Source: Asaia bogorensis (GTDB lineage Bacteria; Pseudomonadota; Alphaproteobacteria; Acetobacterales; Acetobacteraceae). Taken from it: DNA of 32,034 nt. How positions within the stretch are numbered: the first letter of the stretch is position 1; each line of letters opens with the position of its first letter. A model generated the notes under the pieces. That model was not told the origin of the DNA. It saw only the letters and a list, made by a program, of their open reading frames with translations, and did not search any database. This document shows positions 4,144 through 32,034 of the stretch, one piece after another. The position numbers and the translations under genes are program-made. The stretch lies in the NCBI GenBank assembly GCA_945874805.1, contig CAMCJI010000014.1, positions 1-32,034 on the forward strand, given 5' to 3'.

Positions 4144-4638
4144 TTATATTACGATATAGCAACTATAAGGCCGTGCGGCGGCGCCGGTTGCAATGGCCTT
4201 GGTGCTACATCGGGCATGGCGGCGCGGCCATGTCCGGGCCGGCGCCGAGCCGAATGAGGCATGCGGCGGGGTGACGGCGATGGCCGTGCCACGCGCCTGG
4301 ACCACCGGGAGCGAGCCATCCGCCGACGCGGGCGGCCGGCAAGCCGACGCGTGATCGCGGGCGCGGGTTCGCCTGGGGCTGCCGGACGGGCGGCGCGGTG
4401 CCGCTGCGGCCGATGACACCGGGATGGCGGCGGGTGCGATGGTGGGGGGCTCGGTGGCGGCGGGGAGCGGGGCCAGGGTTCCGGCCTGCCATTGGGCGAA
4501 CAGGCTCTCCAGCGCCGTGAGGGCGGCGGTGATGCGGCGGAGAAAGAACAGGTGCAGCACCAGCCCCATCCAGCCGCCGGACATCAGCCCGGCGAGGGCG
4601 CCTTTCAGTCCGGTGATCGGGTTGGCGGGTATGTTCAT
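4144..4638 (-). CDS. Small hypothetical protein with one hydrophobic segment, possible paralogue of 25568-26149
   Basis: A 164-residue protein of unknown function. ATG 4638 gives MNIPANPITGLKGALAGLMS, a hydrophobic stretch (GGWMGLVLHLFF), the motif LFAQWQAGTL, then an Ala/Pro/Arg-rich low-complexity tail. An upstream in-frame start at 4674 would put the promoter inside the gene, so I rejected it. The segment around residues 27-56 can be aligned without gaps to the protein at 25568-26149, sharing Leu-Leu, Arg-Ile and Trp-x-x-Gly-x-Leu. I have seen this Trp-x-x-Gly motif in uncharacterised acetobacterial proteins, but that is recollection. The final codons are read from an unusually AT-rich box (4144-4170), so the C-terminus may be eroded. 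Function unknown. Confidence 0.55.
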   Translation of the reverse strand: MNIPANPITGLKGALAGLMSGGWMGLVLHLFFLRRITAALTALESLFAQWQAGTLAPLPAATEPPTIAPAAIPVSSAAAAPRRPSGSPRRTRARDHASACRPPASADGSLPVVQARGTAIAVTPPHASFGSAPARTWPRRHARCSTKAIATGAAARPYSCYIVI

Positions 4639-7389: not shown

Positions 7390-8763
7390 CTACTCCGCCG
7401 CCTTTTCCTGCGCCACACCCACCACCCGCGTGCGGGTACGCATGGTGACGAACTCCTCGGCCGCCGTTGGGTGGATGCCCACCGTGCGGTCGAAATCGGC
7501 CTTCGTGGCCCCCGCGTTGATGGCGATGGACAGGCCCTGCATGATCTCGGCGGAGTCCTCGCCGAGCATGTGGGCGCCGAGGATGCGCTGGGTGGGCTGG
7601 TCGACCACCAGCTTCATGATGGTGCGGCGTTTGCGGCCTGAGAGCGTGTGGCGCATCGGGGTGAAGGCGGTGAGGTAGATGTCCGTCAGGCCGCGGGCGG
7701 CGGCCTGGGCCTCGGTGAGGCCGACGGTGCCGATCGGCGGGGTGGAGAAGACGGCGGTGGCCACCGCATCCAGCTCCCACCGCCGCGGGCCGGAGCCGTA
7801 GAGGCGGTCGGCGAGGGAGTGGCCTTCGGCGATGGCGACGGGGGTGAGGTTCATCCGGTCCGTCACGTCGCCGATGGCATAGATGTGGGGGACGGACGTA
7901 GCGCTGGTGTCGTCCACGATGATGGCGCCGGAGGGCTTGGTGGCGACGCCGGCGGCCTCCAGGCCGAGGCCGGCCGTGTAGGGCGTGCGGCCGAGGGCGG
8001 AGAAGACGAGGCCGGTCTCGAAGCTCTCCCCATCATCAAGCGTAACCCGCTTTGCCAGCCCGTCCGCCTCCACGCGGACGATGGAGCGGCCGGGCAGCAG
8101 GCGCACGCCCTGGTTGACCAGCGCCTCGGCCAGCCCCGTCCGCATGTCCTCATCGAAGCCGCGCAGCGGCAGATCGGCGCGGTAGATCAGGTCCACCTGC
8201 ACCCCCAGCCCGGCGAAAATCCCGGCGAACTCGACGGCGATGTAGCCGCCGCCGGCGATGGTGATGTGGGCCGGCAGATGCGCCAGATGGAACGCCTGAT
8301 CGGAAATGATAGCATGCTCGGCGCCGGCGAAGGGGGGCGGGGTGGGGCGGCCGCCGGTGGCGATCACAATCCGCTCCGCCGTCACCCGCTGGCCGCCGAC
8401 ATCGAGGGTATGGGCGTCGATGAAGATGGCCCGGGCATCGAAGCTGGTGCAGCCGGACATCAGCCGCTTGTAGATGCCGTTCAGCCGGGCGATCTCCCGG
8501 TCCTTCGCGGCGATCAGCGCCGGCCAGTCATGCGCGCCAGGCTGCGGCGCCCAGCCGAAGCCGCGCGCATCCTGGGCGGCCGCACCGTATTCGCTGGCCA
8601 TCACCAGCAGCTTCTTCGGCACGCAGCCGACATTGACGCAGGTGCCGCCCCAGGCGCCCTCCTCCGCCACGGCGACCCTCGCGCCATGCCCCGCCGCCAT
8701 GCGGGCGCAGCGCACGCCGCCGGAACCGCCGCCGATGACGAAGAGGTCGAAATCGTAGGGCAT
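7390..8763 (-). CDS. gor: Glutathione-disulfide reductase
   Basis: Reduces oxidised glutathione with NADPH through FAD and a redox disulfide. The 457-residue protein has the N-terminal FAD motif FVIGGGSGGVRCAR and the redox-active pair C42/C47 in GGTCVNVGCVPKKL, a form typical of glutathione reductase rather than lipoamide dehydrogenase. The NADPH-binding domain has ITIAGGGYIAVEFAGIF, and Arg residues in the following YRADLPLRGFDEDMR fit NADPH preference. The second FAD motif is HIYAIGDVTDRMNLTPVAI. The C-terminal catalytic HPTAAEEFVTMRT is intact. AGGAG precedes ATG 8763. The 5' side is occupied by a copy of the composite palindromic repeat, so its promoter would have to lie in or beyond that repeat. 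Confidence 0.95.
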   Translation of the reverse strand: MPYDFDLFVIGGGSGGVRCARMAAGHGARVAVAEEGAWGGTCVNVGCVPKKLLVMASEYGAAAQDARGFGWAPQPGAHDWPALIAAKDREIARLNGIYKRLMSGCTSFDARAIFIDAHTLDVGGQRVTAERIVIATGGRPTPPPFAGAEHAIISDQAFHLAHLPAHITIAGGGYIAVEFAGIFAGLGVQVDLIYRADLPLRGFDEDMRTGLAEALVNQGVRLLPGRSIVRVEADGLAKRVTLDDGESFETGLVFSALGRTPYTAGLGLEAAGVATKPSGAIIVDDTSATSVPHIYAIGDVTDRMNLTPVAIAEGHSLADRLYGSGPRRWELDAVATAVFSTPPIGTVGLTEAQAAARGLTDIYLTAFTPMRHTLSGRKRRTIMKLVVDQPTQRILGAHMLGEDSAEIMQGLSIAINAGATKADFDRTVGIHPTAAEEFVTMRTRTRVVGVAQEKAAE

Positions 8764-8780: not shown

Positions 8781-9040
8781 AGGCAAGGGGCAGGAAGGAT
8801 TCTTCTTTTTGTGAACAAAAAGAAGCAAAAAACTTTATCCGTTGGGATGGAGCTTTAGTGTCAGAATTGGGTTTCGAGGCGAGAGGGTCTTATGGCTTCG
8901 CCGCTGAGCCGGATAGACGGTTGAATACCGGCGAAGCCAAAAAAACGAACCCGCGGCAATAACAATGCCGCCACGAAAGCCGCACCCAAACGAACAAGGT
9001 TTTTTTGCTTCTTTTTTTCCAAAAAAAGAAGACGCTTGCC
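8781..9040. repeat. Composite palindromic repeat, copy A
   Basis: A non-coding element filling the gap between the dehydrogenase stop (9050) and the gor start (8763). The outer ends are AGGCAAG (8781) and CTTGCC (9035-9040). The left hairpin CTTCTTTTT/AAAAAGAAG is at 8802-8825 and the right hairpin CTTC-T7/A7-GAAG is at 9008-9031. The inner flanks, AAGAAGCAAAAAACTTT and its near complement, make the two ends inverted copies of each other. The core at 8894-8938 is bounded by GGCTTCGCCG and CGGCGAAGCC. The same architecture recurs at 18155, 26183 and 28147. Small frames that read through it encode Lys/Phe-rich nonsense and are not genes. Confidence 0.85.
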
Positions 9041-9049
9041 TTCGCTCCC

Positions 9050-10540
9050 CTACGTCCCGATCCCGCCCAACGCCAGATACTTCACTTCCAGATACTCTTC
9101 GATCCCCTGGTGCGACCCCTCGCGCCCGAGGCCGGAGGATTTCATGCCGCCGAAGGGTGCCACCTCGGTAGAGATGATGCCTTCGTTGATGCCGACCATC
9201 CCGTATTCCAGCGCTTCGGCCACGCGGAAGATGCGGCCGACGTCGCGGGCGTAGAAATAGGCAGCCAGGCCGAATTCGGTGTCGTTGGCGAGCGCTATGG
9301 CTTCGGCCTCCGTCTCGAAGCGGAACAGCGGGGCGACCGGCCCGAAGGTCTCCTCGCGGAAGATCAGCGCATCCGCCGGCACGTCGGCCAGGATGGTCGG
9401 CTGGAAGAAGTTGCCGCCATTGCCGTGCCGCCCGCCGCCGGTCACCACGCGCCCGCCACGGGCGAGGGCATCGGCGATATGCTCTTCGACCTTCAGCACG
9501 GCATCGGCGTTGATCAGCGGCCCCTGGGTCATGCCGGGCTCCATGCCGTTGCCCACGCGCAGCGCCTCCACGGCGACCTTCAGCTTGGCGGCGAACGCGT
9601 CATACACGCTGGCCTGCACCAGGATGCGGTTGGCGCAGACGCAGGTCTGGCCGGTGTTGCGATACTTGCTGGCCATGGCGCCGAGCACGGCGGCATCCAG
9701 ATCCGCGTCGTCGAACACGATGAACGGCGCGTTGCCGCCAAGTTCCATGCTCGTCCGCTTCACCGTCGGCGCGCATTGGGCGAGCAGCTTGGCGCCGACT
9801 TCGGTGGAGCCGGTGAAGGTCAGCTTGCGGACCAGCTTGTTGGACGTCAGTTCGCCCCCCGTCTCCGCCGCCGGGCCGGTGATGACGTTGCACACGCCGG
9901 CCGGCATGCCCGCGCGCTCGGCCAGCACGGCGATGGCCAGCGCCGAGAACGGCGTCTGGCTCGCAGGCCGGATCACCCCGGTGCAGCCGGCGGCCCAGCC
10001 GGGGCCGGTCTTGCGGGTGATCATCGCAGCCGGAAAATTCCACGGGGTGATCGCGGCAAACACGCCGATCGGCTCCTTGGTGACGATGATGCGCCGGCCG
10101 CGGGCGTTCTGCGGGATCGTGTCGCCATAGACGCGTTTGCCCTCTTCGGCGAACCACTCGATGAAACTGGCGGCATAGGCGATCTCGCCTTTGCTCTCGG
10201 CCAAGGGCTTGCCCTGCTCGGCTGTCATGATGATCGCGAGGTCGTCGGTATTGGCGATCATCAGCTCGAACAGCCGGCGCAGGATGGCGCTGCGTTCCTT
10301 CGCCGTCATCGCCCGCCAGGCCGGCTGGGCGCGATGCGCCGCCTCGATGGCGCGCCGCGTCTCCGCCGCCCCCAGCGCCGGCACCGTGCCGACAACCGAG
10401 CCGTCCGCCGGATTGCGCACGGTCAGCGTGCGCCCGCTATCGGCACCGATCCAGGCGCCGTCGACATAGTTCGCCTGCCGGAACAGGCTGGGGTCCTTCA
10501 GCGCCAAAGGGGCGGCAGGGGCGGCGACTTGGTTGAGCAT
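9050..10540 (-). CDS. gabD: NAD(P)-dependent succinate-semialdehyde-type dehydrogenase
   Basis: A 496-residue aldehyde dehydrogenase of the GabD group, oxidising succinate semialdehyde or a related semialdehyde to the acid. Visible motifs are NYVDGAWIGADSG at the N-terminus, FAAITPWNFPAAMITRKTGP, the cofactor-binding LTFTGSTEVGAKLLAQC, the catalytic Glu in MELGGNAPFIVFDDADLD, the catalytic Cys in NTGQTCVCANRILVQ, and EETFGPVAPLFRFETE. I chose ATG 10540, giving MLNQVAAPAAPLALKDPSLF, because GGAG stands upstream; a longer frame to 10597 would overlap the cupin gene and has no family character. It is the third gene after an RraA-like aldolase and a cupin, which points to catabolism of a small organic acid. 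The true substrate may therefore differ from GABA-derived semialdehyde. Confidence 0.85.
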   Translation of the reverse strand: MLNQVAAPAAPLALKDPSLFRQANYVDGAWIGADSGRTLTVRNPADGSVVGTVPALGAAETRRAIEAAHRAQPAWRAMTAKERSAILRRLFELMIANTDDLAIIMTAEQGKPLAESKGEIAYAASFIEWFAEEGKRVYGDTIPQNARGRRIIVTKEPIGVFAAITPWNFPAAMITRKTGPGWAAGCTGVIRPASQTPFSALAIAVLAERAGMPAGVCNVITGPAAETGGELTSNKLVRKLTFTGSTEVGAKLLAQCAPTVKRTSMELGGNAPFIVFDDADLDAAVLGAMASKYRNTGQTCVCANRILVQASVYDAFAAKLKVAVEALRVGNGMEPGMTQGPLINADAVLKVEEHIADALARGGRVVTGGGRHGNGGNFFQPTILADVPADALIFREETFGPVAPLFRFETEAEAIALANDTEFGLAAYFYARDVGRIFRVAEALEYGMVGINEGIISTEVAPFGGMKSSGLGREGSHQGIEEYLEVKYLALGGIGT

Positions 10541-18050: not shown

Positions 18051-18125
18051 GGGCGCGTAGCTCAGCGGTAGAGCATCGCCTTCACACGGCGGGGGTCACA
18101 GGTTCAATCCCTGTCGCGCCCACCA
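18051..18125 (+). tRNA. tRNA-Val, anticodon CAC
   Basis: A 75-base cloverleaf including an encoded CCA. The acceptor stem GGGCGCG (18051-18057) pairs with CGCGCCC (18115-18121), followed by discriminator A and CCA. The D-arm GCTC-AGCGGTA-GAGC is standard. The anticodon stem TCGCC/GGCGG encloses the loop TTCACAC, giving anticodon CAC, which reads GTG. The T-arm ACAGG-TTCAATC-CCTGT is intact. The tRNA stands alone. The first hairpin of repeat copy B, about 50 bases downstream, is the nearest terminator-like structure. No attachment-site duplication of the 3' end was seen in the window. Confidence 0.97.
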
Positions 18126-18154: not shown

Positions 18155-18421
18155 AGGCAAGCGGAAGTCAGAAGTCTTCTTTTTGTGAACAAAAAGAAGC
18201 AAAAAAACTTTGTTCATGGGCGGGCGGTGGAGCTACTGCGTTGGTTCTGCGCGACTTCGCGTTTGATGGCTTCGCCGCCGAGCCGCGTAGATGGTTGAAA
18301 ATCCGGCGAAGCCAAAAAAAATCCCCCCAATCAAACGCAACCCCGGCGCTCAGCCCCCGCAAACGGCCAAAAGTTTTTTGCTTCTTTTTTTAAAAAAAGA
18401 AGACCCTTCCTACCCCTTGCC
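18155..18421. repeat. Composite palindromic repeat, copy B
   Basis: Fills the convergent gap between tRNA-Val and the M20 peptidase stop at 18434. The outer ends are AGGCAA (18155) and CTTGCC (18416-18421). The left hairpin, with GTGAAC at its top, starts at 18176. The right hairpin CTTC-T7/A7-GAAG (18381-18402) has no loop bases. The core at 18268-18313 is bounded by GGCTTCGCCG/CGGCGAAGCC and is in the same orientation as in copy A. The hairpins may serve as a two-way terminator between the tRNA and the peptidase gene. Confidence 0.85.
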
Positions 18422-18433
18422 TTGCGACCGCCC

Positions 18434-19822
18434 CTACGGCGCGCCCGGCTCCCCCAGATCCCACCAGATGCCCGTATAGGCGGCCAGGCCCTCGCGGGCC
18501 GGGGCGATCAGGAAATGTTCGTTCGGCCCGTGCTGCTTGCAGCCGTTGTAGCTGTGCGGAATCCACACCAGCGGCACGTGCAGGTGATCGACGAACACGT
18601 CGCCCGGCAGCCCGCCGCCGCCATTGGGGATCAGCTGCACCCGCTTGCCCAGCGAGCGTTCCATGCTGGCGATCGTCCAGCCCACCCAGGGGTTGGCGAG
18701 GTCGGTGCGGCTGGCCGGCAGCCGGAGGCCGGCGTTCTCCACACCCACCTCCGCGAAGCCCTCGGCATCCAGATGCGCGCGGACGGCGGCTTCGAACTTC
18801 GCCGGGTCGCTATCGACGGTGTAGCGGATCTGGCAGGTCGCCCGCGCGAAGGGGGCCACCGCGTTCACCGGGTTTTCCGGCTTGCCGGCCACCATCGCCA
18901 GCACGATGAAGCTGGTCCAGCCGAACACCTTCTCGGCGGCGGTGAAGCCCGGCTCGCCCCAGTTCGGATCGATCGTGGCCGAAGCCTCGCTCGGCAGTTC
19001 CAGCCCCGCCAGCGCCCCGCGCACCGCGGCCGGCAGCCCGTTGGCCGGCAGCCAGTCGCGCACGCGGATACGGCCGTGCCGGTCGCAGATGGAGCCGATG
19101 GCGTGGCTGAGCACGATCGCCGGATCGACGATCATGCCGCCCCAGTTGCCGGAATGCACCCCGCCCGGCCGCAGCGCCAGCACGAGATCGAAATGGTAGC
19201 TGCCGCGCGTGCCGGTCGTCACCGTGGGGATCTCGGCGGCCACGCGCGGGCCGTCCGAGGCGATCAGCACATCGGCGGCCAGCGCCGTGGTGTTGCCGGC
19301 GACGAACTCGCGCAGCCCGGTCGAGCCGCGCTCCTCGCTGGTCTCCAGGATCAGCTTGACGTTGAAGCCCAGCTTGCCGCCGCGCGCTGCGATGACGTGT
19401 TCCAGCGCGGTGAGGTTCACCACGTGCTGGCCCTTGTTGTCCGCCGTGCCGCGGCCGTACCAGCGGTCGCCGACTTCCTGCAGTTCCCAAGGCTTGAGGC
19501 CCGCATCCCACTGGTCGTCCAGCCCGCGCACGGTATCGCCGTGGCCGTAGGTCAGCACGGTGCGATAGCTGGGGTCCTCGATCCGCTCGGCCACCAGGAT
19601 CGGCCCGAAGCCCTCTACGGGGTTGGGATGCACCACCACGGAGAAGCCCATCCGCTCCACCCAGGGGGCGATGCCCTCCTGCAGGTAGCGCCAGACATCC
19701 GGCAGATGGTCGTCGTCCTGCAGGGTGGACGGGATCGCCACCAGCCCCGCCAGCCGATCGCGGAAACTGCCCGCATCGAAAAAGCCGAGGGCAGTGCTGA
19801 TGGCGGTGTCGCGTGTGGTCAT
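18434..19822 (-). CDS. M20 family metallopeptidase (dipeptidase/deacylase-like)
   Basis: A 462-residue cytoplasmic zinc hydrolase of the M20 clan, which cleaves peptide or amide bonds next to a free carboxylate. The first metal ligand is H94, with D96 in LTYGHGDTVRGLDDQWD. The bridging Asp lies in WYGRGTADNKGQHVVNL, the catalytic Glu pair in ILETSEERGSTGLREF, and a further Asp ligand in VLIASDGPRV. The dimerisation domain has GVHSGNWGGMIVDPAIVLSH, and the last His ligand is probably in KQHGPNEHFLI. No signal peptide is present. It is transcribed away from the binding protein gene by 67 bases of spacing on the same strand, so it could hydrolyse what the adjacent ABC importer brings in. Confidence 0.87.
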   Translation of the reverse strand: MTTRDTAISTALGFFDAGSFRDRLAGLVAIPSTLQDDDHLPDVWRYLQEGIAPWVERMGFSVVVHPNPVEGFGPILVAERIEDPSYRTVLTYGHGDTVRGLDDQWDAGLKPWELQEVGDRWYGRGTADNKGQHVVNLTALEHVIAARGGKLGFNVKLILETSEERGSTGLREFVAGNTTALAADVLIASDGPRVAAEIPTVTTGTRGSYHFDLVLALRPGGVHSGNWGGMIVDPAIVLSHAIGSICDRHGRIRVRDWLPANGLPAAVRGALAGLELPSEASATIDPNWGEPGFTAAEKVFGWTSFIVLAMVAGKPENPVNAVAPFARATCQIRYTVDSDPAKFEAAVRAHLDAEGFAEVGVENAGLRLPASRTDLANPWVGWTIASMERSLGKRVQLIPNGGGGLPGDVFVDHLHVPLVWIPHSYNGCKQHGPNEHFLIAPAREGLAAYTGIWWDLGEPGAP

Positions 19823-24670: not shown

Positions 24671-25524
24671 GTGGCGCATTGCCGCCGCCGGAGCGGGTGC
24701 TTGCGCGGATATTTGCGGCGCCGGGGGCGGCGGTGGGGGCGACGATCCTGGGGGTGCTGATCCTCGGCGCGTTGCTGGCCCCCTGGATCGCGCCGTTCGA
24801 CTGGAACGAGACGCGGGTTTGCGCGCGGCTGGCGGCTCCTTCCTGGACCAATCTGTTCGGTTGCGACCTGTACGGGCGGGATATCTTCAGCCGGGTGCTG
24901 TATGGCGGGCGGTTTTCGCTATCGGTGGGGATTGCCACCGTCACCGTCAGCCTGTTCGCCGGCGCGCTGCTCGGGACGATCATCGGCTATGTCGGCGGGC
25001 GGGTGGATGCGGCGGGGACGCGGGTGATCGATGTGATGCTCGGGTTTCCGCCGATCATCCTGGCGATCCTGGTGGTGGCCGTGCTCGGGGTGGGGCTGTG
25101 GAATGCAGCGCTGGCGGTGGGGATCGCGGGCATCCCGCGGTTTGCCCGGGTGGTGCGCTCGGCGACGCTGAGTCTCGCGGCGCGGGAGTTCATCGAAGGG
25201 GCGCAGGCGGTAGGGGCGACGCATCCGCGGATCATCCGGCGGCATCTGATCCCCAATCTGGCGCCGACGCTGATCGTGCTGGCATCCCTCGATCTGGGCA
25301 ATGCGGTGCTGGCGACGGCGACGCTGAGCTTCCTCGGCCTGGGCGCGCAGCCGCCGACGCCGGAATGGGGGGCGATGCTGAATGCGGGCCGCGAGTTCAT
25401 CCGCTATGCGCCCTGGACGATGCTGTTTCCGGGGGCGGCGCTGTTCCTCGCGGTGATGAGCGTCAACCTCGTTGGCGACCGGCTGAGCCAGGTGCTGGAC
25501 CCGCGGCAGCGCGGGCGGAGTTAG
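24667..25524 (+). CDS. ABC importer permease, DppC type
   Basis: A 285-residue inner-membrane permease, partner of the DppB-type protein upstream. The family's N-terminal helix (VGATILGVLILGALLAPWIAPFDW) is followed by the typical LFGCDLYGRDIFSRVLYGGRFSLSVG and a GYVGGRVDAAGTRVIDVMLGFPPIILAIL segment. The EAA loop is REFIEGAQAVGATHPRIIRRHLIPN. It ends with SVNLVGDRLSQVLDPRQRGRS, usual for DppC. The start is GTG 24667, overlapping the upstream stop (GTGA). A 6-bp GC stem at 25500-25515 and a T7 run at 25525-25531 mark the likely end of the transcript. No DppD or DppF ATPase gene follows; the next gene is convergent. Confidence 0.9.
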   Translation: MSGALPPPERVLARIFAAPGAAVGATILGVLILGALLAPWIAPFDWNETRVCARLAAPSWTNLFGCDLYGRDIFSRVLYGGRFSLSVGIATVTVSLFAGALLGTIIGYVGGRVDAAGTRVIDVMLGFPPIILAILVVAVLGVGLWNAALAVGIAGIPRFARVVRSATLSLAAREFIEGAQAVGATHPRIIRRHLIPNLAPTLIVLASLDLGNAVLATATLSFLGLGAQPPTPEWGAMLNAGREFIRYAPWTMLFPGAALFLAVMSVNLVGDRLSQVLDPRQRGRS

Positions 25525-25531
25525 TTTTTTT
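25500..25531 (+). terminator. Weak intrinsic terminator after the permease operon
   Basis: CCCGCG-GCAG-CGCGGG (25500-25515) forms a 6-bp stem in the last codons of the DppC-type gene, and T7 follows at 25525-25531. The nine-base gap between stem and T run is longer than usual, so efficiency is doubtful. Confidence 0.4.
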
Positions 25532-25567
25532 ATCGTAATAATATAGCGCGCGGTTCTCCCCCGAGGC

Positions 25568-26149
25568 TCAGGGGCCGGTTTTGAATCTGAGGCCGAGGCG
25601 GCGCAGGCGGGCGCGGTCTTTCGGGGGGATGAAGCGGATCGCGATCGGGCGGAGGTCCGAGAGGTCCTCGCGCGGCTTGCGGGGCTTCGGCACATAGGGT
25701 TTGCGCGTCCGCGGCGGCAGGCGGAGATGTTCGGGCAGCTTGATGCCGAACATTCTGGCCCAGGGGCGCAGGATGCGGCCGGCGGCAGGGTGGGCGGCGA
25801 CGAGGGCCTTGATGTCGGCGTCGTTCAGCAGGCCCTCGATGTGGCCGATGTTCTCGGCGGTGAACGGGACGAGCTTGACCAGCCACATCTCGGCCGTCGG
25901 CAGGCGCAGTTCGGGCTTCGGGCGGGGCTTGCTCGGGCGCTTGGCCCTTGGGCGGGCGGTGGGGAGCTGGCCGCGCTCCCACAGCAGCATGAGCCGGGTG
26001 AAGCGGTTGCGCAGGCGGCAGATGCGGTTCCACACGAGGAGAATCAGCGGCGCCAGGGCGCGGAACTTCACGGCGTACTGGCCCACCTTCTCACGGAGAA
26101 GCTCGACGGTGCGGGAGAGGTTCTCGCCTAGGGGGGTGGAGGGGTGCAT
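25568..26149 (-). CDS. Hypothetical protein, basic and proline-rich, acetobacterial type
   Basis: A 193-residue protein of unknown function. Residues 1-60 are helical and partly hydrophobic (LAPLILLVWNRICRLRNRFTRLMLLWERGQLP). A Lys/Arg/Pro-rich linker follows, then a compact segment LVKLVPFTAENIGHIEGLLNDADIKALVAAHPAAGRILRPWARMFGI and a second basic tail. The combination of Trp-x-x-Gly-x-Leu and RILRPWARMFG is one I recall from repeated uncharacterised proteins of Acetobacteraceae; this needs a search. ATG 26149 lies only three bases after a perfect 11-bp dyad. Both ends of the gene are AT-rich in a GC-rich setting. Part of the N-terminus can be aligned to the product of 4144-4638. Confidence 0.62.
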   Translation of the reverse strand: MHPSTPLGENLSRTVELLREKVGQYAVKFRALAPLILLVWNRICRLRNRFTRLMLLWERGQLPTARPRAKRPSKPRPKPELRLPTAEMWLVKLVPFTAENIGHIEGLLNDADIKALVAAHPAAGRILRPWARMFGIKLPEHLRLPPRTRKPYVPKPRKPREDLSDLRPIAIRFIPPKDRARLRRLGLRFKTGP

Positions 26150-26152
26150 GGT

Positions 26153-26180
26153 TTATAACTAACATTTTTGTTAGTTATAA
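26153..26180. promoter_or_regulatory. Perfect 11-bp dyad at the start of the 25568-26149 gene
   Basis: TTATAACTAAC (26153-26163) and GTTAGTTATAA (26170-26180) are exact inverted copies around a six-base spacer. The dyad ends three bases before the start codon of the minus-strand gene and contains a TATAAA-like -10. As DNA it looks like an operator for a dimeric repressor covering the promoter. As RNA it would be an AU-rich hairpin at the 5' end. It does not work as a terminator for a known gene. Confidence 0.6.
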
Positions 26181-26182
26181 GG

Positions 26183-26460
26183 CACGGGAAGAGTCTTCTT
26201 TTTTGAAAAAAAGAAGCAAAAAACTTTTGGGACTTGGTGGGGGGTGGCTCACGGTGGGGGCGCTGGCGGTGGGGGGTTTTGGGCTTCGCCGGGCTTTGCA
26301 CCGTCTTTGCGGCTTGGCGGCGAAGCCAGGAGGGGGTCTATGCCAAGGAGAAAGCATCTGTTTGCCAGTGCAAGTGGCGGAAGGCGCTGCGCTTTTCCGC
26401 CCTACTCGAAAACGGATAAAAGTTTTTTGGTTCTTTTTTTCAAAAAAGAACGCGCTTGCC
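26183..26460. repeat. Composite palindromic repeat, copy C
   Basis: Fills the gap between the dyad and the stop of the ATP-grasp-like gene (26461). The left hairpin is at 26195-26216. The right hairpin, 26430-26451, has GTTC/GAAC ends instead of CTTC/GAAG. The outer end is CTTGCC at 26455-26460. The core at 26282-26327 has the same GGCTTCGCCG/CGGCGAAGCC borders as copies A and B, but its interior reads in the opposite direction. About 90 bases of unrelated sequence separate the core from the right hairpin. Confidence 0.82.
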
Positions 26461-27363
26461 TCACCCGATGATCGCGCGGCGCAGGGCCGTGCGGGCGGCG
26501 CGGCCGGCGGCGAGGTCGGTGCAGTTGACGATGGCGACACGGAAGCCGCCGGGGGGCATGGCGTGGGTGGCGGGGTCGCGGTCTTCGTGGAAGGTGATCT
26601 GGATGCTCGATATGCCAGGCCGGGCGGCCAGCTCGGCGGTCAGGGCCGGTGGGGGGTGGCGGTAGCGGCGGCCGTTCGGGCCGAACAGCGCGAGGCTGAA
26701 GCCGGTGGTGCGGGCGGTGTCGGCGAAGCGCCACTGGCCCTCGGCGTAGAGGCCGATGAGGGCATCGACCCAGCCGGGACCGTAGAGGTCTGGCCATTGG
26801 TCGGCGAAGCGCAGATGCGCCTCGATGATGCGCCCGCCGATGGTCTCGAGGTTCAGCATGCCGGTGTAGCCGGGCAGGTTGGCGGCGATCCAGGTGGCGC
26901 AGGCGGCCTCCAGCCTGGGGCGGGGCGCGGCGTGGACCACCCAGCGGTCGAAGGTGCCGCCGGGGCGGGGGATGCCGGTGGCGTGGCGCCACCAGACGGC
27001 GCGGCCACCCTGCACGGCGGCGTCGCTGCTGACATGGGTGCCGCGCAGCAACTGCATCCAGAAATGCCCGGGCGTGAGGGCGGCGAGATAGGAGGCCGCG
27101 TCGGCGATGACGCGACTGCCGGTGCCCATGCCGCGCAGGTTGACGATGGGCTTGGAGAAGACCGGGAAGGCCGGCGGCATCACCCCGTGCGGGGCAGCGG
27201 GGAGGCCCTGGGAGTGGGCGATGCTCAGCTTGTCGTAGAGCCAGCGGTGGGCGGGGTACCAGGCCCAGGCGTCCGCATCCTCGGTGGGGATGCGGATGCC
27301 GGGGGGGCAGGCGGCGGCGGTGAAGTATTGCTCGCGCCAGGGGTCGGCCTCACAGATCGGCAT
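26461..27363 (-). CDS. ATP-grasp-like protein
   Basis: A 300-residue protein with features of the ATP-grasp fold. These include a Lys-containing glycine-rich strand (FPVFSKPIVNLRGMGTGSRVI), a short lid-like region (FWMQLLRGTHVSSDAAVQGG, AVWWRHATGI), and an Asn-x-Glu metal site in GMLNLETIGGRIIEAHLRF. The opening MPICEADPWREQYFTA replaces the usual N-terminal domain, so the protein is short for the fold. It could be a carboxylate-amine ligase or a degenerate relative. AGGAG precedes ATG 27363. It is divergent, by 73 bases, from a SAM-dependent methyltransferase gene, so the two might modify one product. The assignment rests on pattern recognition and remains moderate. Confidence 0.5.
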   Translation of the reverse strand: MPICEADPWREQYFTAAACPPGIRIPTEDADAWAWYPAHRWLYDKLSIAHSQGLPAAPHGVMPPAFPVFSKPIVNLRGMGTGSRVIADAASYLAALTPGHFWMQLLRGTHVSSDAAVQGGRAVWWRHATGIPRPGGTFDRWVVHAAPRPRLEAACATWIAANLPGYTGMLNLETIGGRIIEAHLRFADQWPDLYGPGWVDALIGLYAEGQWRFADTARTTGFSLALFGPNGRRYRHPPPALTAELAARPGISSIQITFHEDRDPATHAMPPGGFRVAIVNCTDLAAGRAARTALRRAIIG

Positions 27364-27436
27364 CGATTCCGCTCCTCTCTGGACAATTCGGCGCCTCTGC
27401 GGCAACAGCGGTCAATGCATTTTAGTGGGCCGCAAG

Positions 27437-28120
27437 ATGAGCAACGGCGAGGTTGACGGCAAATATTATCAGATCGCCCGGCCCGGCTCGCTCGCCGACC
27501 GGCTGGTGGTGCGGGCGCGAGACGCGATTTACGCGGATTTCATCCGCCGGACTGGTTGCACCGCTTCCGATACAATCCTCGATGTCGGGATATCCGACGT
27601 GGTCGGCGAGAGCGCCAACATGCTCGAGCGGCTGCATCCGCATCAGGCGCAGATCACCGCGGTGGGGATCGGCACGGCCGAGGCGTTCCAGGAGGCCTTC
27701 CCCGCGGTGACGTATCGGCAGATCGTGCCGAATACGACCCTGCCCTTTGCCGACAAGACGTTCGATATCGCGACCTCCAACGCGGTGGTGGAGCATGTGG
27801 GCAGCGCCGAACATCAGCGCCTGCTGATCTCGGAGATGCTGCGCGTGGCGCGGCGGGTGTATGTGACGGTGCCGAACCGGTTCTTCCCGGTGGAACACCA
27901 TACCGGCATTCCGCTGCTGCACTATTGGGACGCGAGCTTCGCACTGGCCTGCCGGCTGACCGGCAAGACGGAATGGGCGGACCCCACCAACCTCATCCTG
28001 ATGTCGACCGGCAAGCTGCGCGCGGTCTGGCCGCCGGGGCGGCGCGTGGAGATCGGCATGACCGGACTGCCGTTGGGGCCGTTCAGCTCCAGCGTTTACG
28101 GGTATGTCGATCAGGGGTGA
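27437..28120 (+). CDS. Class I SAM-dependent methyltransferase
   Basis: A 227-residue methyltransferase of the Methyltransf_11 type. SAM-binding motif I is ILDVGISDVVGESANMLE (with Ile-Ser in place of the more usual Gly-x-Gly). Motif IV is FDIATSNAVVEHVGSAEHQ, followed by LLISEMLRVARRVYVTVPNRFFPVEHHTGIPLLHYW. I chose ATG 27437 because the upstream in-frame sequence is antisense to the neighbouring gene. The Shine-Dalgarno match is weak. Such proteins often act on lipids, quinones or surface sugars, and nothing here fixes the substrate. Repeat copy D begins about 27 bases after the stop. Confidence 0.8.
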   Translation: MSNGEVDGKYYQIARPGSLADRLVVRARDAIYADFIRRTGCTASDTILDVGISDVVGESANMLERLHPHQAQITAVGIGTAEAFQEAFPAVTYRQIVPNTTLPFADKTFDIATSNAVVEHVGSAEHQRLLISEMLRVARRVYVTVPNRFFPVEHHTGIPLLHYWDASFALACRLTGKTEWADPTNLILMSTGKLRAVWPPGRRVEIGMTGLPLGPFSSSVYGYVDQG

Positions 28121-28146: not shown

Positions 28147-28365
28147 AGGCAAGGGTCTTCTTTTTGTGAACTTGCGACGGCGAAGGCGCCGCGCAGGAAA
28201 GAAGCAAAAAAACTTTGTCCTTTGGTTTGGTGTTCGCTCTCGGTGGTGGGTTTGACGGAGAGGGGGTTTTGGGGCTTCGCCGGGTTTTGAACCGACGATC
28301 CGGCTAGGCGGCGAAGCCAGGAAAAAGTTTTTTGCTTCTTTTTTCCAAAAAAGAAGATGCTTCCC
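28147..28365. repeat. Composite palindromic repeat, copy D
   Basis: Lies between the methyltransferase stop and the helicase promoter. The left outer end is AGGCAAG (28147-28153). The left hairpin (from 28157) is interrupted by about 25 GC-rich bases including GGCGCC (28172-28196). The core at 28273-28318 has the standard borders and the same interior direction as copy C. The right hairpin CTTC-T6-CC-A6-GAAG (28335-28356) follows the core after only a few bases, so this copy lacks the right-hand spacer found in A, B and C. The right outer end is degraded (ATGCTTCCC). Confidence 0.82.
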
Positions 28366-28672: not shown

Positions 28673-29818
28673 ATGCTCGACTTCAATTCGCTCGGCCTCG
28701 ACCCGCTCCTGCTGAAGGCGCTGGCCGCCGAAGGCTATGTGGCGCCGACGCCGATTCAGGAACAGGCCATCCCCCATGTGCTGGCCGGCCGTGACGTGCA
28801 GGGCATCGCCCAGACCGGCACCGGCAAGACCGCCGCCTTCGCGCTGCCGATCCTGCAGCGCCTCGCCTCGATCAAGAAGCAGCCGCCGCGCGCGGGTTGC
28901 CGCGTGCTGGTGCTCTCGCCGACGCGTGAGCTGGCCAGCCAGATTGCCGAATCCTTCCGAGTCTATGGCAAGTTCATGGGCGTGCGGGTGGCGCTGATGT
29001 TCGGCGGCGTGCCGAAGGGCAAGCAGGTGCGCGCCATCGAACGCGGCGTGGACGTGCTGGTGGCAACGCCAGGCCGGCTGATCGACCATCTGCAGGACCG
29101 CGCCGTGCGGCTCGACGCGGTGGAGATCCTGGTGCTCGACGAGGCGGACCACATGCTCGACCTCGGCTTCATCATTCCGATCCGCCGCATCGTGGGGTTC
29201 ATTCCGGCGAACCGGCAGACGCTGTTCTTCTCGGCCACCATGCCGAAGGAGATCGGCAACCTCGCCAGCTCGATGCTGAAGGACCCGGCACACGTGGCCG
29301 TAACCCCGGTGGCAACGACCGCCGAGCGGGTGGAACAGGCCGTCATCATGGTGGATACCGCGCGCAAGCGGCACGTGCTGTTCGACCTGCTGAAGTCCAC
29401 CGCACTCGGGCGGACGCTGGTGTTTACCCGCACCAAGCATGGCGCCGATCGCGTGGTGAAGTATCTTGAGGAATCCGGCGTGCCGGCCGCGGCGATCCAT
29501 GGCAACAAGAGCCAGCCGCAGCGGGAGAAGGCGCTCGCCAACTTCAAGGCGGGCACGGCACGGGTGCTGATCGCCACCGACATCGCCGCACGCGGCATCG
29601 ATGTGGACGGCGTGCAGCACGTCATCAACTTCGACCTGCCGAACGTGCCGGAAAGCTACGTCCACCGCATCGGCCGCACCGCGCGCGCCGGGGCGGACGG
29701 TATGGCGATCAGCTTCTGCGCGCCCGACGAACGCGCCTTCCTGCGCGATATCGAGAAACTGATCCGCACGAAGGTGCCGGTCATGAACCAGCCCGGCCAG
29801 CTCGCGCGGGCGGCTTGA
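28673..29818 (+). CDS. rhlE: DEAD-box RNA helicase, RhlE type
   Basis: An ATP-dependent RNA helicase of 381 residues, acting in ribosome assembly or mRNA turnover. All family motifs are present in order: Q motif GYVAPTPIQEQAIP, motif I AQTGTGKTAAFALP, Ia PTRELASQ, Ib ATPGRLIDHL, II VLDEADHMLDLGF, III FFSATMP, IV TLVFTRTKHGADRV, V IATDIAARGIDVDGVQHVINFDLP and VI HRIGRTARAG. It ends 40 residues after motif VI with PVMNQPGQLARAA, so the long basic tail of many RhlE proteins is absent. ATG 28673 starts MLDFNSLGLDP, the standard N-terminus; the frame extends upstream to 28454 within the leader. The last 38 bases overlap, antisense, the end of the recombinase remnant. Confidence 0.93.
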   Translation: MLDFNSLGLDPLLLKALAAEGYVAPTPIQEQAIPHVLAGRDVQGIAQTGTGKTAAFALPILQRLASIKKQPPRAGCRVLVLSPTRELASQIAESFRVYGKFMGVRVALMFGGVPKGKQVRAIERGVDVLVATPGRLIDHLQDRAVRLDAVEILVLDEADHMLDLGFIIPIRRIVGFIPANRQTLFFSATMPKEIGNLASSMLKDPAHVAVTPVATTAERVEQAVIMVDTARKRHVLFDLLKSTALGRTLVFTRTKHGADRVVKYLEESGVPAAAIHGNKSQPQREKALANFKAGTARVLIATDIAARGIDVDGVQHVINFDLPNVPESYVHRIGRTARAGADGMAISFCAPDERAFLRDIEKLIRTKVPVMNQPGQLARAA

Positions 29819-31133
29819 TCGTGTAGGCAAGTAAGGCCAGGGGCTTTGCCCCTGGAGCCTCTTTTACCGAACTGATGAACCTGTCTAGGGCCGAGGTGTC
29901 GGTTTGGCGGGATTCCTTGGGTTTTGGCGGGTTGGCGGTAGTTAGCATGGCTTTCAGGTCGCCCACGAGTTCGATGTTTGACGGATCTCCGTCGATTTCG
30001 GGCGGGGTGATGATGATGCGGTCGATCAGCTGACGGGCGGTTTCCAGGGCTTCAGGGTCTGTGCCGTTGGTTAGGGCGATCTGCATGTCGGTGATTTTCC
30101 GCTGGTAGGCTTCGGCGATGCCGGGCGAGAGCGGCGGAGCGGTTTGGCGTGCAACCGCCGCCTCGGTGGGGATACGAGCGAGTTCGGCTTCGAGGGTGTC
30201 GATCCGCTGGAGGAGGCTTGGGCGGGACTGACCTTCGGTGACGGCATCGACGAGGTGGGTGAGTTTGCGCTCGATGGCGGCGCGCTGTCGGTGCCGGGTA
30301 TCCGCCTGGGTGGCGGCTTCGGCGGCGATGGCGCGGCAGGCCTCGGCGTAGGCCTCGGTGAAGGCGGCGACCAGGGCCGGGTGCATGAGTTGGCGCCCGA
30401 GGGCCTGGAGCACAGAGGTCTGAAGTGGGCCGCGGCGTATCGTAGCGGTGTTGCGGCAGGCGCCGTTGGTGGCCGTGCGGCAGCCGAGATAGTCCTGGCC
30501 ACGAGCACTGAACGGGCGGTGGCAGAGGCCGCAGACGACTTTGCCACTCAGCAGGTGCCGGGGGCGGCGGCGTTCCCAGAAGGCATGGGTCGCGCTTTCG
30601 GCGGGGCGGGCGACGGGTGCGGCCTCGGTTGCCAGCCGTGCCTGAACGCGCTCCCAGATGTTCTGGTCGATGATGCGCAGATGCGGAACGTCGCGGACGA
30701 CGATATCGGCGGGGTCGCCGGTGCGGCGGATACGCGTGCCGGTCACCGGATCCTTCACGGCGTGGCGGCGACTCCAGACGAGTTGGCCGGTATAGGTGGG
30801 GTTGCGCAGGATGCCGTCATTGCGTTCAGCGCGGCCACGGATGGTCGCGTCGTACCAGATGCCGCCGCCCGGGCCAGGGATACCCTGCTGGTTCAGGGTC
30901 CGGGCGATGCGCAGCGGACCGAGGCCGGCGGCGTAGTCGGCGAAGATGCGGCGGACGATGGCGGCCTTGTCCGGGGCGATCTCGCGCAGACCACGGTCGA
31001 TCTCCCCGTCGCCGGTGAGACGGCGGACGACGCGGTAGCCGTAGGGTGGGGTGCCGATGCTGCGTCCCTCGCGGATGCGGCCCTCCCCTCGTCGAAATCC
31101 AAAGTCTTTGCGATTCCGGCGTATTCTGGACAT
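29781..31133 (-). pseudogene. Large serine recombinase lacking its catalytic domain
   Basis: The frame encodes 450 residues that match the middle and end of a large serine recombinase. The Recombinase domain begins at EGRIREGRSIGTPPYGYRVV and contains IVRRIFADYAAGLGPLRIARTLNQQGIPGPGGG and ILRNPTYTGQLVWSR. The zinc-ribbon VVCGLCHRPFSARGQDYLGC, with a Cys further on, follows, and then a coiled-coil region (AIERKLTHLVDAV). The N-terminal resolvase domain of about 140 residues with the catalytic Ser is absent. Upstream sequence instead belongs to a tyrosine integrase read in another frame. Codons upstream of about 31090 are therefore not native. The C-terminal end runs into the helicase terminator and antisense helicase codons, so it is also probably not native. 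It should be inactive. Confidence 0.82.
29837..29855 (+). terminator. Hairpin after the helicase gene (repeat-like terminator)
   Basis: CCAGGGGC-TTT-GCCCCTGG is a perfect 8-bp GC stem 19 bases past the helicase stop, followed by a weak T stretch (CTTTT at 29861-29865). It is preceded by AGGCAAG (29825-29831), the same heptamer that ends the composite repeats. Hairpins of this sequence recur after genes in many alphaproteobacterial genomes. Confidence 0.6.
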
Positions 31134-31760
31134 TGCGAGAGACGACGGTCGCTCTCTCGAGCAGGCGCGGCCGATAGATCGAAAGATAGGTCTCGAGGTA
31201 GCCGATCAAGGCCGCTGGAAAGCCCGCCTCCAGCGCCTTGCGCGTCTTGGTCTCCGAGGCCGCGAACCGGATAAAAAAGCCATCCCCTTGCTTGACGAGG
31301 TGTCGGCCGATCTCGATCGACGCAAAGTTCGAGATCCTGAACGGCCGCGCGGCCAACAGGGCAATGATCAATCCATCCCGGTAGGATGCGGCTTGGTGGC
31401 GGCCAACGCCGTCGGATTGCCGCTCGGCTTCCTGCATCAGTTCGATGCCAAGGGATAACAGCGCCTTCGATGGCAGGATCCGCCCGATCTTGCTGGCGGG
31501 TGGTTGCGCGACACGCTTCAACCGGTTGGCAACATCCCACAGCCACTGCCAGTTGAGCCCCGGCGCCAAGGCCTGTGTGACCGAGCAAAGAGCGAGGATG
31601 TAACCCGCGACCGTGCCTGTTGAAACCTGAGCGCGCAGGCCCGCAACATAGGCGGCAATGCGCTCCGGCGTGACCCGGGCCGCGATCGGCTGGGCCAACT
31701 GCCCCTCTTCGTTCAGACGGAGCCAATTGGCCTGCTGCTGGTTCGCTGGACACCTGGTTA
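31082..31760 (-). pseudogene. Tyrosine site-specific integrase fragment, broken at both ends
   Basis: About 225 codons resemble a tyrosine recombinase. A core-binding domain is seen in ARVTPERIAAYVAGLRAQV and GTVAGYILALCSVTQAL. The start of the catalytic domain is RDGLIIALLAARPFRISNFASIEIGRHL, with the first catalytic Arg. The Lys of the beta hairpin is in ASETKTRKALE, and the segment ends at QRLWISTRGG. The later HxxR, His/Trp and catalytic Tyr are missing because the sequence joins the serine recombinase remnant at about 31082-31093. On the upstream side the frame is cut near 31760, where the IS1380 end begins. The fragment cannot be active. Confidence 0.78.
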
Positions 31761-31761
31761 A

Positions 31762-32034
31762 GATAACCTGAATTATGCATGACGGGTGGCGGGTGGCGGG
31801 CATCGAGACAACCCGCTGATCTGAAGTAGGATTTGGGTATTGATACTTATTCGATCCGATCTTGGATGCGCCATGCCCGCCAGTGACGACGCTACTCCCG
31901 CTTTGCCCGGCCTGTCACCGATCTGCGGACGGCCGATCGAGGTGCGCTTCGACGGCGGGCTGATGTCCTCCGATGGAGGCCTTCTGGTGCTGCGGCAGAT
32001 CGAGCAGCGGCTGGGGATCGCCCGGCGTCTGGCC
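31762..32034 (+). mobile_element. Left part of an IS1380-family element (runs off window)
   Basis: The transposase start and the break in the integrase place an IS end near 31762. The sequence AACCTGAATTATGCATGA beginning at about 31766 is the likely terminal region, and TTAA (31758-31761) could be the flanking target duplication. A tandem GGGTGGC pair lies at 31784-31797. The exact tip cannot be fixed without the right end. Confidence 0.6.
31873..32034 (+). CDS. IS1380-family transposase, N-terminal 54 codons (partial)
   Basis: ATG 31873 opens a frame that stays open to the end of the window. The product, with PALPGLSPICGRPIEVRFDGG, LMSSDGGLLVLRQIEQRLGIARRLA, has the DGG-L-SSDGG-LLLR-E-RLGIA pattern that starts IS1380-type DDE transposases. 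Only about an eighth of the usual length (about 430 to 450 residues) is visible, so intactness of the catalytic DDE residues cannot be judged. The gene is transcribed away from the integrase remnant that the element interrupts. Confidence 0.8.
   Translation, partial: MPASDDATPALPGLSPICGRPIEVRFDGGLMSSDGGLLVLRQIEQRLGIARRLA

Follow-up and report, generated by a model that had tools for sequence, protein, structure and literature searches.

The window analysed here, 32,034 nucleotides of Asaia bogorensis DNA that make up one complete contig of a 4.53 Mb draft genome in 401 contigs, carries four copies of a repeat family that is previously undescribed in the open-access literature, occurs in more than 100 copies in this genome (G000) and is spread across one bacterial family, the Acetobacteraceae. 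On balance, the sequence comparisons tip towards this dispersed family being a bidirectional transcription-terminator (3′-end) element that would be retained by selection. The initial annotation knew of no named family with such a layout, and a literature search of open-access papers upheld this, no description of the element being found; just one unrelated Leptospira paper contained one of the strings when exact sequences were searched. An Rfam search returned tRNA only, and no RNA family was assigned to the element.

Layout of the window copies and of the repeat unit

The four window copies were inspected directly and then aligned with each other (Table 1). Every copy has an A/T hairpin at either end, arms that are complementary to each other and a core of 45-46 bp with GGCTTCGCCG/CGGCGAAGCC as its boundaries, and the shared layout that the initial annotation had described was therefore borne out in all four. 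The outer AGGCAAG/CTTGCC ends it had listed were exact in copies 1 and 2; the left outer end of copy 3 reads AGGCACG and the right outer end of copy 4 CTTCCC. The placement of the copies close to gene 3′ ends was also confirmed, with edges 0-33 bp from an ORF stop or a tRNA 3′ end. Folding z-scores of the copies range from -3.8 to -9.0 (both strands), and when up to one mismatch was allowed the arm matched 205 times genome-wide, against 7 times for the reversed pattern used as control, which together place the copies far beyond chance. With 205 matches rather than just four copies, the proposal of one genome-wide family held.

Table 1 Coordinates of the four window copies, their parts and their neighbours
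Feature	Position	Strand	Basis or remark
Copy 1, full inverted dimer	8781-9040	.	direct inspection, alignment, gene calls, relatives' junctions
Copy 1, neighbour: aldehyde dehydrogenase-like gene (3′ end)	9050-10540	-	
Copy 1, neighbour: glutathione-reductase-like gene (start)	7390-8763	-	
Copy 1, left end hairpin CTTCTTTTTGTGAACAAAAAGAAG, B type	8802-8825	+	direct inspection; hairpin-base covariation
Copy 1, left purine arm CAAAAAACTTT	8826-8836	+	direct inspection; mirror relation to stem
Copy 1, core palindrome GGCTTCGCCG...CGGCGAAGCC	8894-8938	.	direct inspection, alignment
Copy 1, right arm AAGGTTTTTTTG, U-rich tract for + transcripts	8996-9007	-	direct inspection
Copy 1, right end hairpin, A type (T7/A7, arm A7)	9008-9031	-	direct inspection; stem/arm comparison
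Copy 2	18155-18421	.	convergent: tRNA gene (18051-18122, +) and 3′ end of 18434-19822 (-)
Copy 2, left hairpin, B type	18176-18199	+	direct inspection
Copy 2, core palindrome	18268-18313	.	direct inspection
Copy 2, right hairpin, A type	18381-18402	-	direct inspection
Copy 3	26180-26460	.	direct inspection, alignment; right end of GAACC subtype
Copy 3, neighbour: gene stop	26461-27363	-	
Copy 3, neighbour: gene start	25568-26149	-	
Copy 3, left hairpin, A type	26195-26216	+	direct inspection
Copy 3, core palindrome	26282-26327	.	direct inspection
Copy 3, right hairpin GTTCTTTTTTTCAAAAAAGAAC, closing pair swapped to G-C	26430-26451	-	direct inspection; covariation
Copy 4	28147-28365	.	26 bp past stop of methyltransferase-like gene (27425-28120, +)
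Copy 4, left hairpin, G+C-rich insert in loop	28157-28204	+	direct inspection; insert recurs in several copies
Copy 4, core palindrome	28273-28318	.	direct inspection
Copy 4, right hairpin, A type	28335-28356	-	direct inspection

The anatomy of the family was examined in about 1.10 Mb of G000, in contigs picked for carrying the arm. The elementary unit is about 40 nt long and consists of a 10-11 bp A/T hairpin followed by a purine arm; each end of a window copy is one such unit, and in all four copies two of them form an inverted dimer. Besides inverted dimers flanking a G+C-rich palindrome there are also single units, and after arm pairing the sample held 107 elements, 62 of them two-ended and 45 with one recognised end. 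Most dimers pair an end of type A (CTTCTTTTTTGAAAAAAAGAAGCAAAAAACTTTT) with one of type B (CTTCTTTTTGTGAACAAAAAGAAGCAAAAAAACTTT). Arm-to-arm lengths cluster near 82, 145, 195 and 235-247 bp, and the consensus of the 197-bp class in G000 folds into one continuous, near-perfect 276-nt hairpin (-203.7 kcal/mol) from AGGCAAG to CTTGCCT. The spacers, noted at first as differing between copies, have indeed diverged but are not unrelated, being halves of this one long palindrome. Shorter length classes look, from their sequences, like one-sided deletions of the 197-bp class, and longer ones contain inserts. The inner part tends to be shorter in other genera, usually 46-70 bp, and tail-to-tail units with touching hairpins were found also in relative G020 and in a public MAG, which indicates that the unit, rather than the whole element, is the constant part; head-to-head dimers occur in most genomes. 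Read on either strand, the order is hairpin, A-rich tract, G+C-rich stem-loop, U-rich tract, hairpin.

Some copies carry further sequences. The G+C-rich insert in the end-hairpin loop of copy 4 recurs in several other copies (L045, L053, L059, L062, L063, L075, L086 and L089), and a similar insert is present in another species (G001, L242:8489). A GTAG-tagged, REP-like palindrome, GTAGGGCGGAAAAGCGCAGCGCCTTCCGCC, lies within element spacers, in the window at 26376-26405 and also in L040 and L041, and CGTC-like inserts are present in other element copies; CGTC REPs have been reported missing from Acetobacteraceae (PMC3733652).

The base of the hairpin was counted by script over 527 units. The pair was C-G in 367 units, G-C in 115 and T-A in 12, and the base was complementary in 494 of the 527, against 303 expected with independent columns, although relatedness inflates this count; the hairpin is therefore maintained by compensatory change. 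A further set of 77 loci was anchored on their interiors, the arms being unused in finding them. Perfect arm matches were seen at 117 of its 154 ends and matches with a single error at 27, a level at which random flanks are seldom found (rarely within five errors), while the interiors of the same loci are about 79% identical to the consensus.

Distribution, gain and loss

The 147 relatives were scanned for the exact arm at up to one mismatch. Matches to the exact arm were found in 45, in numbers from 1 to about 900; most relatives, many Acetobacteraceae among them, had none, and outside the family only scattered matches were seen, roughly as many as the reversed control gave. Of the 147 genomes, 35 were positive with a covariance model of the unit, and 34 of these belong to the same family. 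Public exact matches were mainly to Acetobacteraceae and Rhodospirillales, including Acidiphilium and Rhodovastum, and the element is present in two Pseudoroseomonas plasmids. Exact unit matches also turned up in ten sequences titled Acidobacteria, Clostridia, Defluviitaleaceae or Nitrospirae (L110, L168, L103, L114, L116, L117, L142, L143, L145 and L178), which could be misbinned contigs, chance matches in A/T-rich genomes or real spread.

At the junction that holds copy 1, G001 and G027 have overlapping aldehyde dehydrogenase-like and reductase-like genes (gap -1); the two genes are 10 bp apart in G017 and are separated by a tail-to-tail pair in G020. For a second element of G000, the corresponding junction in G001 measures 3 bp. 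Orthologous sites were further compared at five positions in the genus of G062, using G062, G147 and G151 (about 85% identity). The element occurs in all three species at three of the five sites; at one site G062 has a full element and the other two half an element, and at another only G062 has it, alongside a gene absent from the other two. The occupied and empty sites suggested for comparison were thus found in part, with empty sites in G001 and G027 and some sites kept across species. At site L316:4722 the end units are almost identical in the three species and the interiors cannot be aligned. Judged from these sequences, selection is likelier than gene conversion to have kept the ends alike, although gene conversion could also do so.

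The block 25513-26461, containing copy 3 and its downstream gene, recurs in L040 at about 84% identity and as two pieces in L066, and copy 3 has spread at least partly together with its neighbour gene. The gene 25568-26149 is itself multicopy, with 13 matches in 1.1 Mb, five of them at 85-100% protein identity, and gave no match in a Pfam search. A palindrome, TATAACTAACATTTTTGTTAGTTATA (26154-26179), precedes its start and is partly repeated in other copies of the gene, several of which have a repeat element directly upstream. The gene 4144-4638 belongs to a second small multicopy family (at least 10 matches in 1.1 Mb, with no Pfam match), which in L042 and L088 lies between two element ends. 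Close to the contig end, the window also holds two overlapping recombinase-like reading frames (29781-31803).

Location at gene 3′ ends and a candidate terminator function

Genes in G000 were predicted with a codon-model script (90% coding), and 98 of the 107 sampled elements could be classified by the orientation of their neighbours. Convergent pairs flank 33 elements, tandem pairs 57 and divergent pairs 8; free intergenic length would predict 12, 52 and 34 (p about 1e-12), and gene-pair numbers 15, 68 and 14. Copies mostly begin 0-40 bp past stops, the median distance from hairpin edge to nearest upstream stop being 14 bp, and 33 of 36 tandem dimers lie closer to the upstream stop than to the downstream start. 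Only two of the 107 elements overlap a predicted gene, both being wide pairs that span a small gene. In an independently annotated Pseudoroseomonas plasmid, an element that folds as hairpin, G+C stem and hairpin exactly occupies the interval between two convergent stops, which lie 0 and 2 bp away from it, and in a second annotated plasmid an element begins 5 bp past a stop. A fixed polarity of A and B ends relative to transcription was considered as well; the B end faced the upstream stop in 16 of 23 cases, too few for a bias.

The initial annotation had left the choice between a mobile element and a 3′-end RNA structure, and the latter fits best with the proximity to stops, the preference for convergent genes and the conserved ends. 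We propose that a polymerase arriving from either side would terminate after transcribing the central G+C stem followed by a U-rich tract of the UUUUUUGCUUCUUUUU type, while the end hairpins would border and protect the mRNA 3′ ends. The element would have spread by copying, at least once with a neighbouring gene, after which selection on its ends would hold it in place. Termination, 3′-end protection and selection rather than gene conversion are what we infer from these comparisons.

The short forms of Pseudoroseomonas and G062, in which a G+C stem is followed by a U-rich tract in both directions, support the terminator reading, whereas in the long forms of G000 the G+C core is often farther from the U tract. 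Because of this separation, a simple consensus scan of G000 for intrinsic terminators gave no excess over shuffles. Further observations count against the terminator reading: only one end is recognised in 45 of the 107 sampled elements, divergent genes flank eight copies, and copy 1 sits between two genes whose G001 counterparts overlap, a place at which strong termination would cut an operon in two. In addition, PIT/TM elements of similar layout in E. coli showed neither promoter nor terminator activity (PMC4666352). Bidirectional intrinsic terminators share with the family the symmetric order of A-tract, G+C stem and U-tract between convergent stops, but the family differs in its conserved flanking hairpins, its homologous dispersed interiors and the long spacer between G+C core and U tract in G000.

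Alternative readings and known repeat systems

It is possible, although we think it unlikely, that the copies are non-autonomous, selfish mobile elements of foldback MITE or REP-like type, which a transposase with a preference for gene 3′ ends would move in trans; they would have no host function, and their ends would be conserved by the requirement of that transposase. Long terminal inverted repeats, interiors shared within a genome, arm matches varying from 0 to about 900 between genera and from 13 to 118 between species within one genus, and the empty orthologous sites in G001 and G027 all agree with it, and dispersal by copying, as part of the mobile option first raised, is supported by the homologous interiors, empty sites and patchy copy number. 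The RAYT helper that had been suggested was rejected, PF01797 being absent from G001 and from G000, whose assembly is about 91% complete; it was detected in 18 of the 147 relatives, in both low-copy and high-copy genomes, and G020, G052 and G080 are not among them. No transposase was seen between element ends in the 1.1 Mb sampled, and three widely spaced pairs considered as autonomous copies (L042, L048 and L088) contain ordinary or multicopy host genes, the multicopy gene giving no Pfam match. No target duplication was recognised at the testable empty sites, in relatives only about 75-85% identical. Moreover, at sites shared by species of about 85% identity the ends have remained intact, and divergent intergenic regions are avoided.

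Foldback MITEs resemble the family in being non-coding, with long terminal inverted repeats and empty sites in relatives, but here neither a target duplication (among relatives of the above identity) nor a cognate transposase (in the 1.1 Mb) was found, the ends are conserved after insertion and the location at 3′ ends is strong. REP/BIME sequences (PMC3733652) are the nearest kind by behaviour: both are short palindromic intergenic units in high copy, with single units and inverted dimers of two subtypes, found where genes converge or run in tandem and patchily among close relatives, and the unit of about 40 nt falls at the REP size of 20-40 bp. The new family differs in its A/T-rich hairpin with an extra mirror arm and in the G+C palindrome that its dimers carry in their middle. 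Because neither a GTAG nor a CGTC tag was found at the unit ends and the RAYT tyrosine transposase was absent from G000 and G001, we did not file it as REP/BIME.

A DNA-structure role is improbable, in which an intergenic cruciform or H-DNA/intrastrand triplex would absorb supercoiling or stall polymerases at converging transcription. The enrichment between convergent genes and the perfect long palindrome of the consensus are consistent with it, as is the relation of the arm to its own stem. Arm length follows stem length, T6/A6 stems carrying A6 arms and T7/A7 stems A7 arms, and the stems TTTTCT, TTTTTCT, TTTTTTCT and TTTCTT carry the arms AAAAGA, AAAAAGA, AAAAAAGA and AAAGAA, respectively. 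Where the stem is perfect and the tract includes a C, the arm mirrors the stem in 62 units and copies it directly in none. However, most units have pure A/T tracts, in which mirror and direct repeats look the same; the GTGAAC type (stem TTTTTGT) keeps the length with an A7 arm but has A where the mirror requires C; a few G080 variants break the rule; and the closing CTTC/GAAG pairs must open to give the triplex linker sufficient length.

Mirror order is a requirement of a triplex and would not result from an alternative hairpin, so the arm allows a triplex. It is nevertheless doubtful that the end unit is a conserved triple-helix motif, by which bacterial mRNAs would end in a U.A-U triplex shielding the 3′ end. 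The outgoing strand carries two U-rich tracts followed by an A-rich one, the first of the three being an exact parallel Hoogsteen partner (T.AT, C.GC and T opposite CG). The MALAT1 triple helix has the same order of U-rich, U-rich and A-rich strands, and T opposite CG follows the T.CG pairing rule for triplexes. The tracts of 6-8, loop of 2 and linker of 5 lie within the published ITxF definition, which asks for three compatible tracts, each 6-15 nt long, and for loops of 1-6 nt (PMC4666352). The PIT/TM-ECO triplex motifs of E. coli and others (PMC4666352) likewise consist of pyrimidine stem, short loop, purine stem, short linker and mirror purine tract, are intergenic, sometimes form inverted pairs and vary in copy number between close strains; they are G/C-rich, whereas the family described here is A/T-rich, belongs to Acetobacteraceae, consists mostly of inverted dimers around a G+C core and has a strong 3′-end bias.

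The hundreds of natural variants would offer material for asking if the triplex pairing of mirror repeats is conserved among bacteria, and compact two-way terminators for use in acetic acid bacteria and their relatives could be drawn from the family. If the terminator reading is right, some thirty genera of one family would share a copy-and-spread element as a 3′-end signal, giving an unusual chance to watch a selfish-looking repeat turn regulatory.
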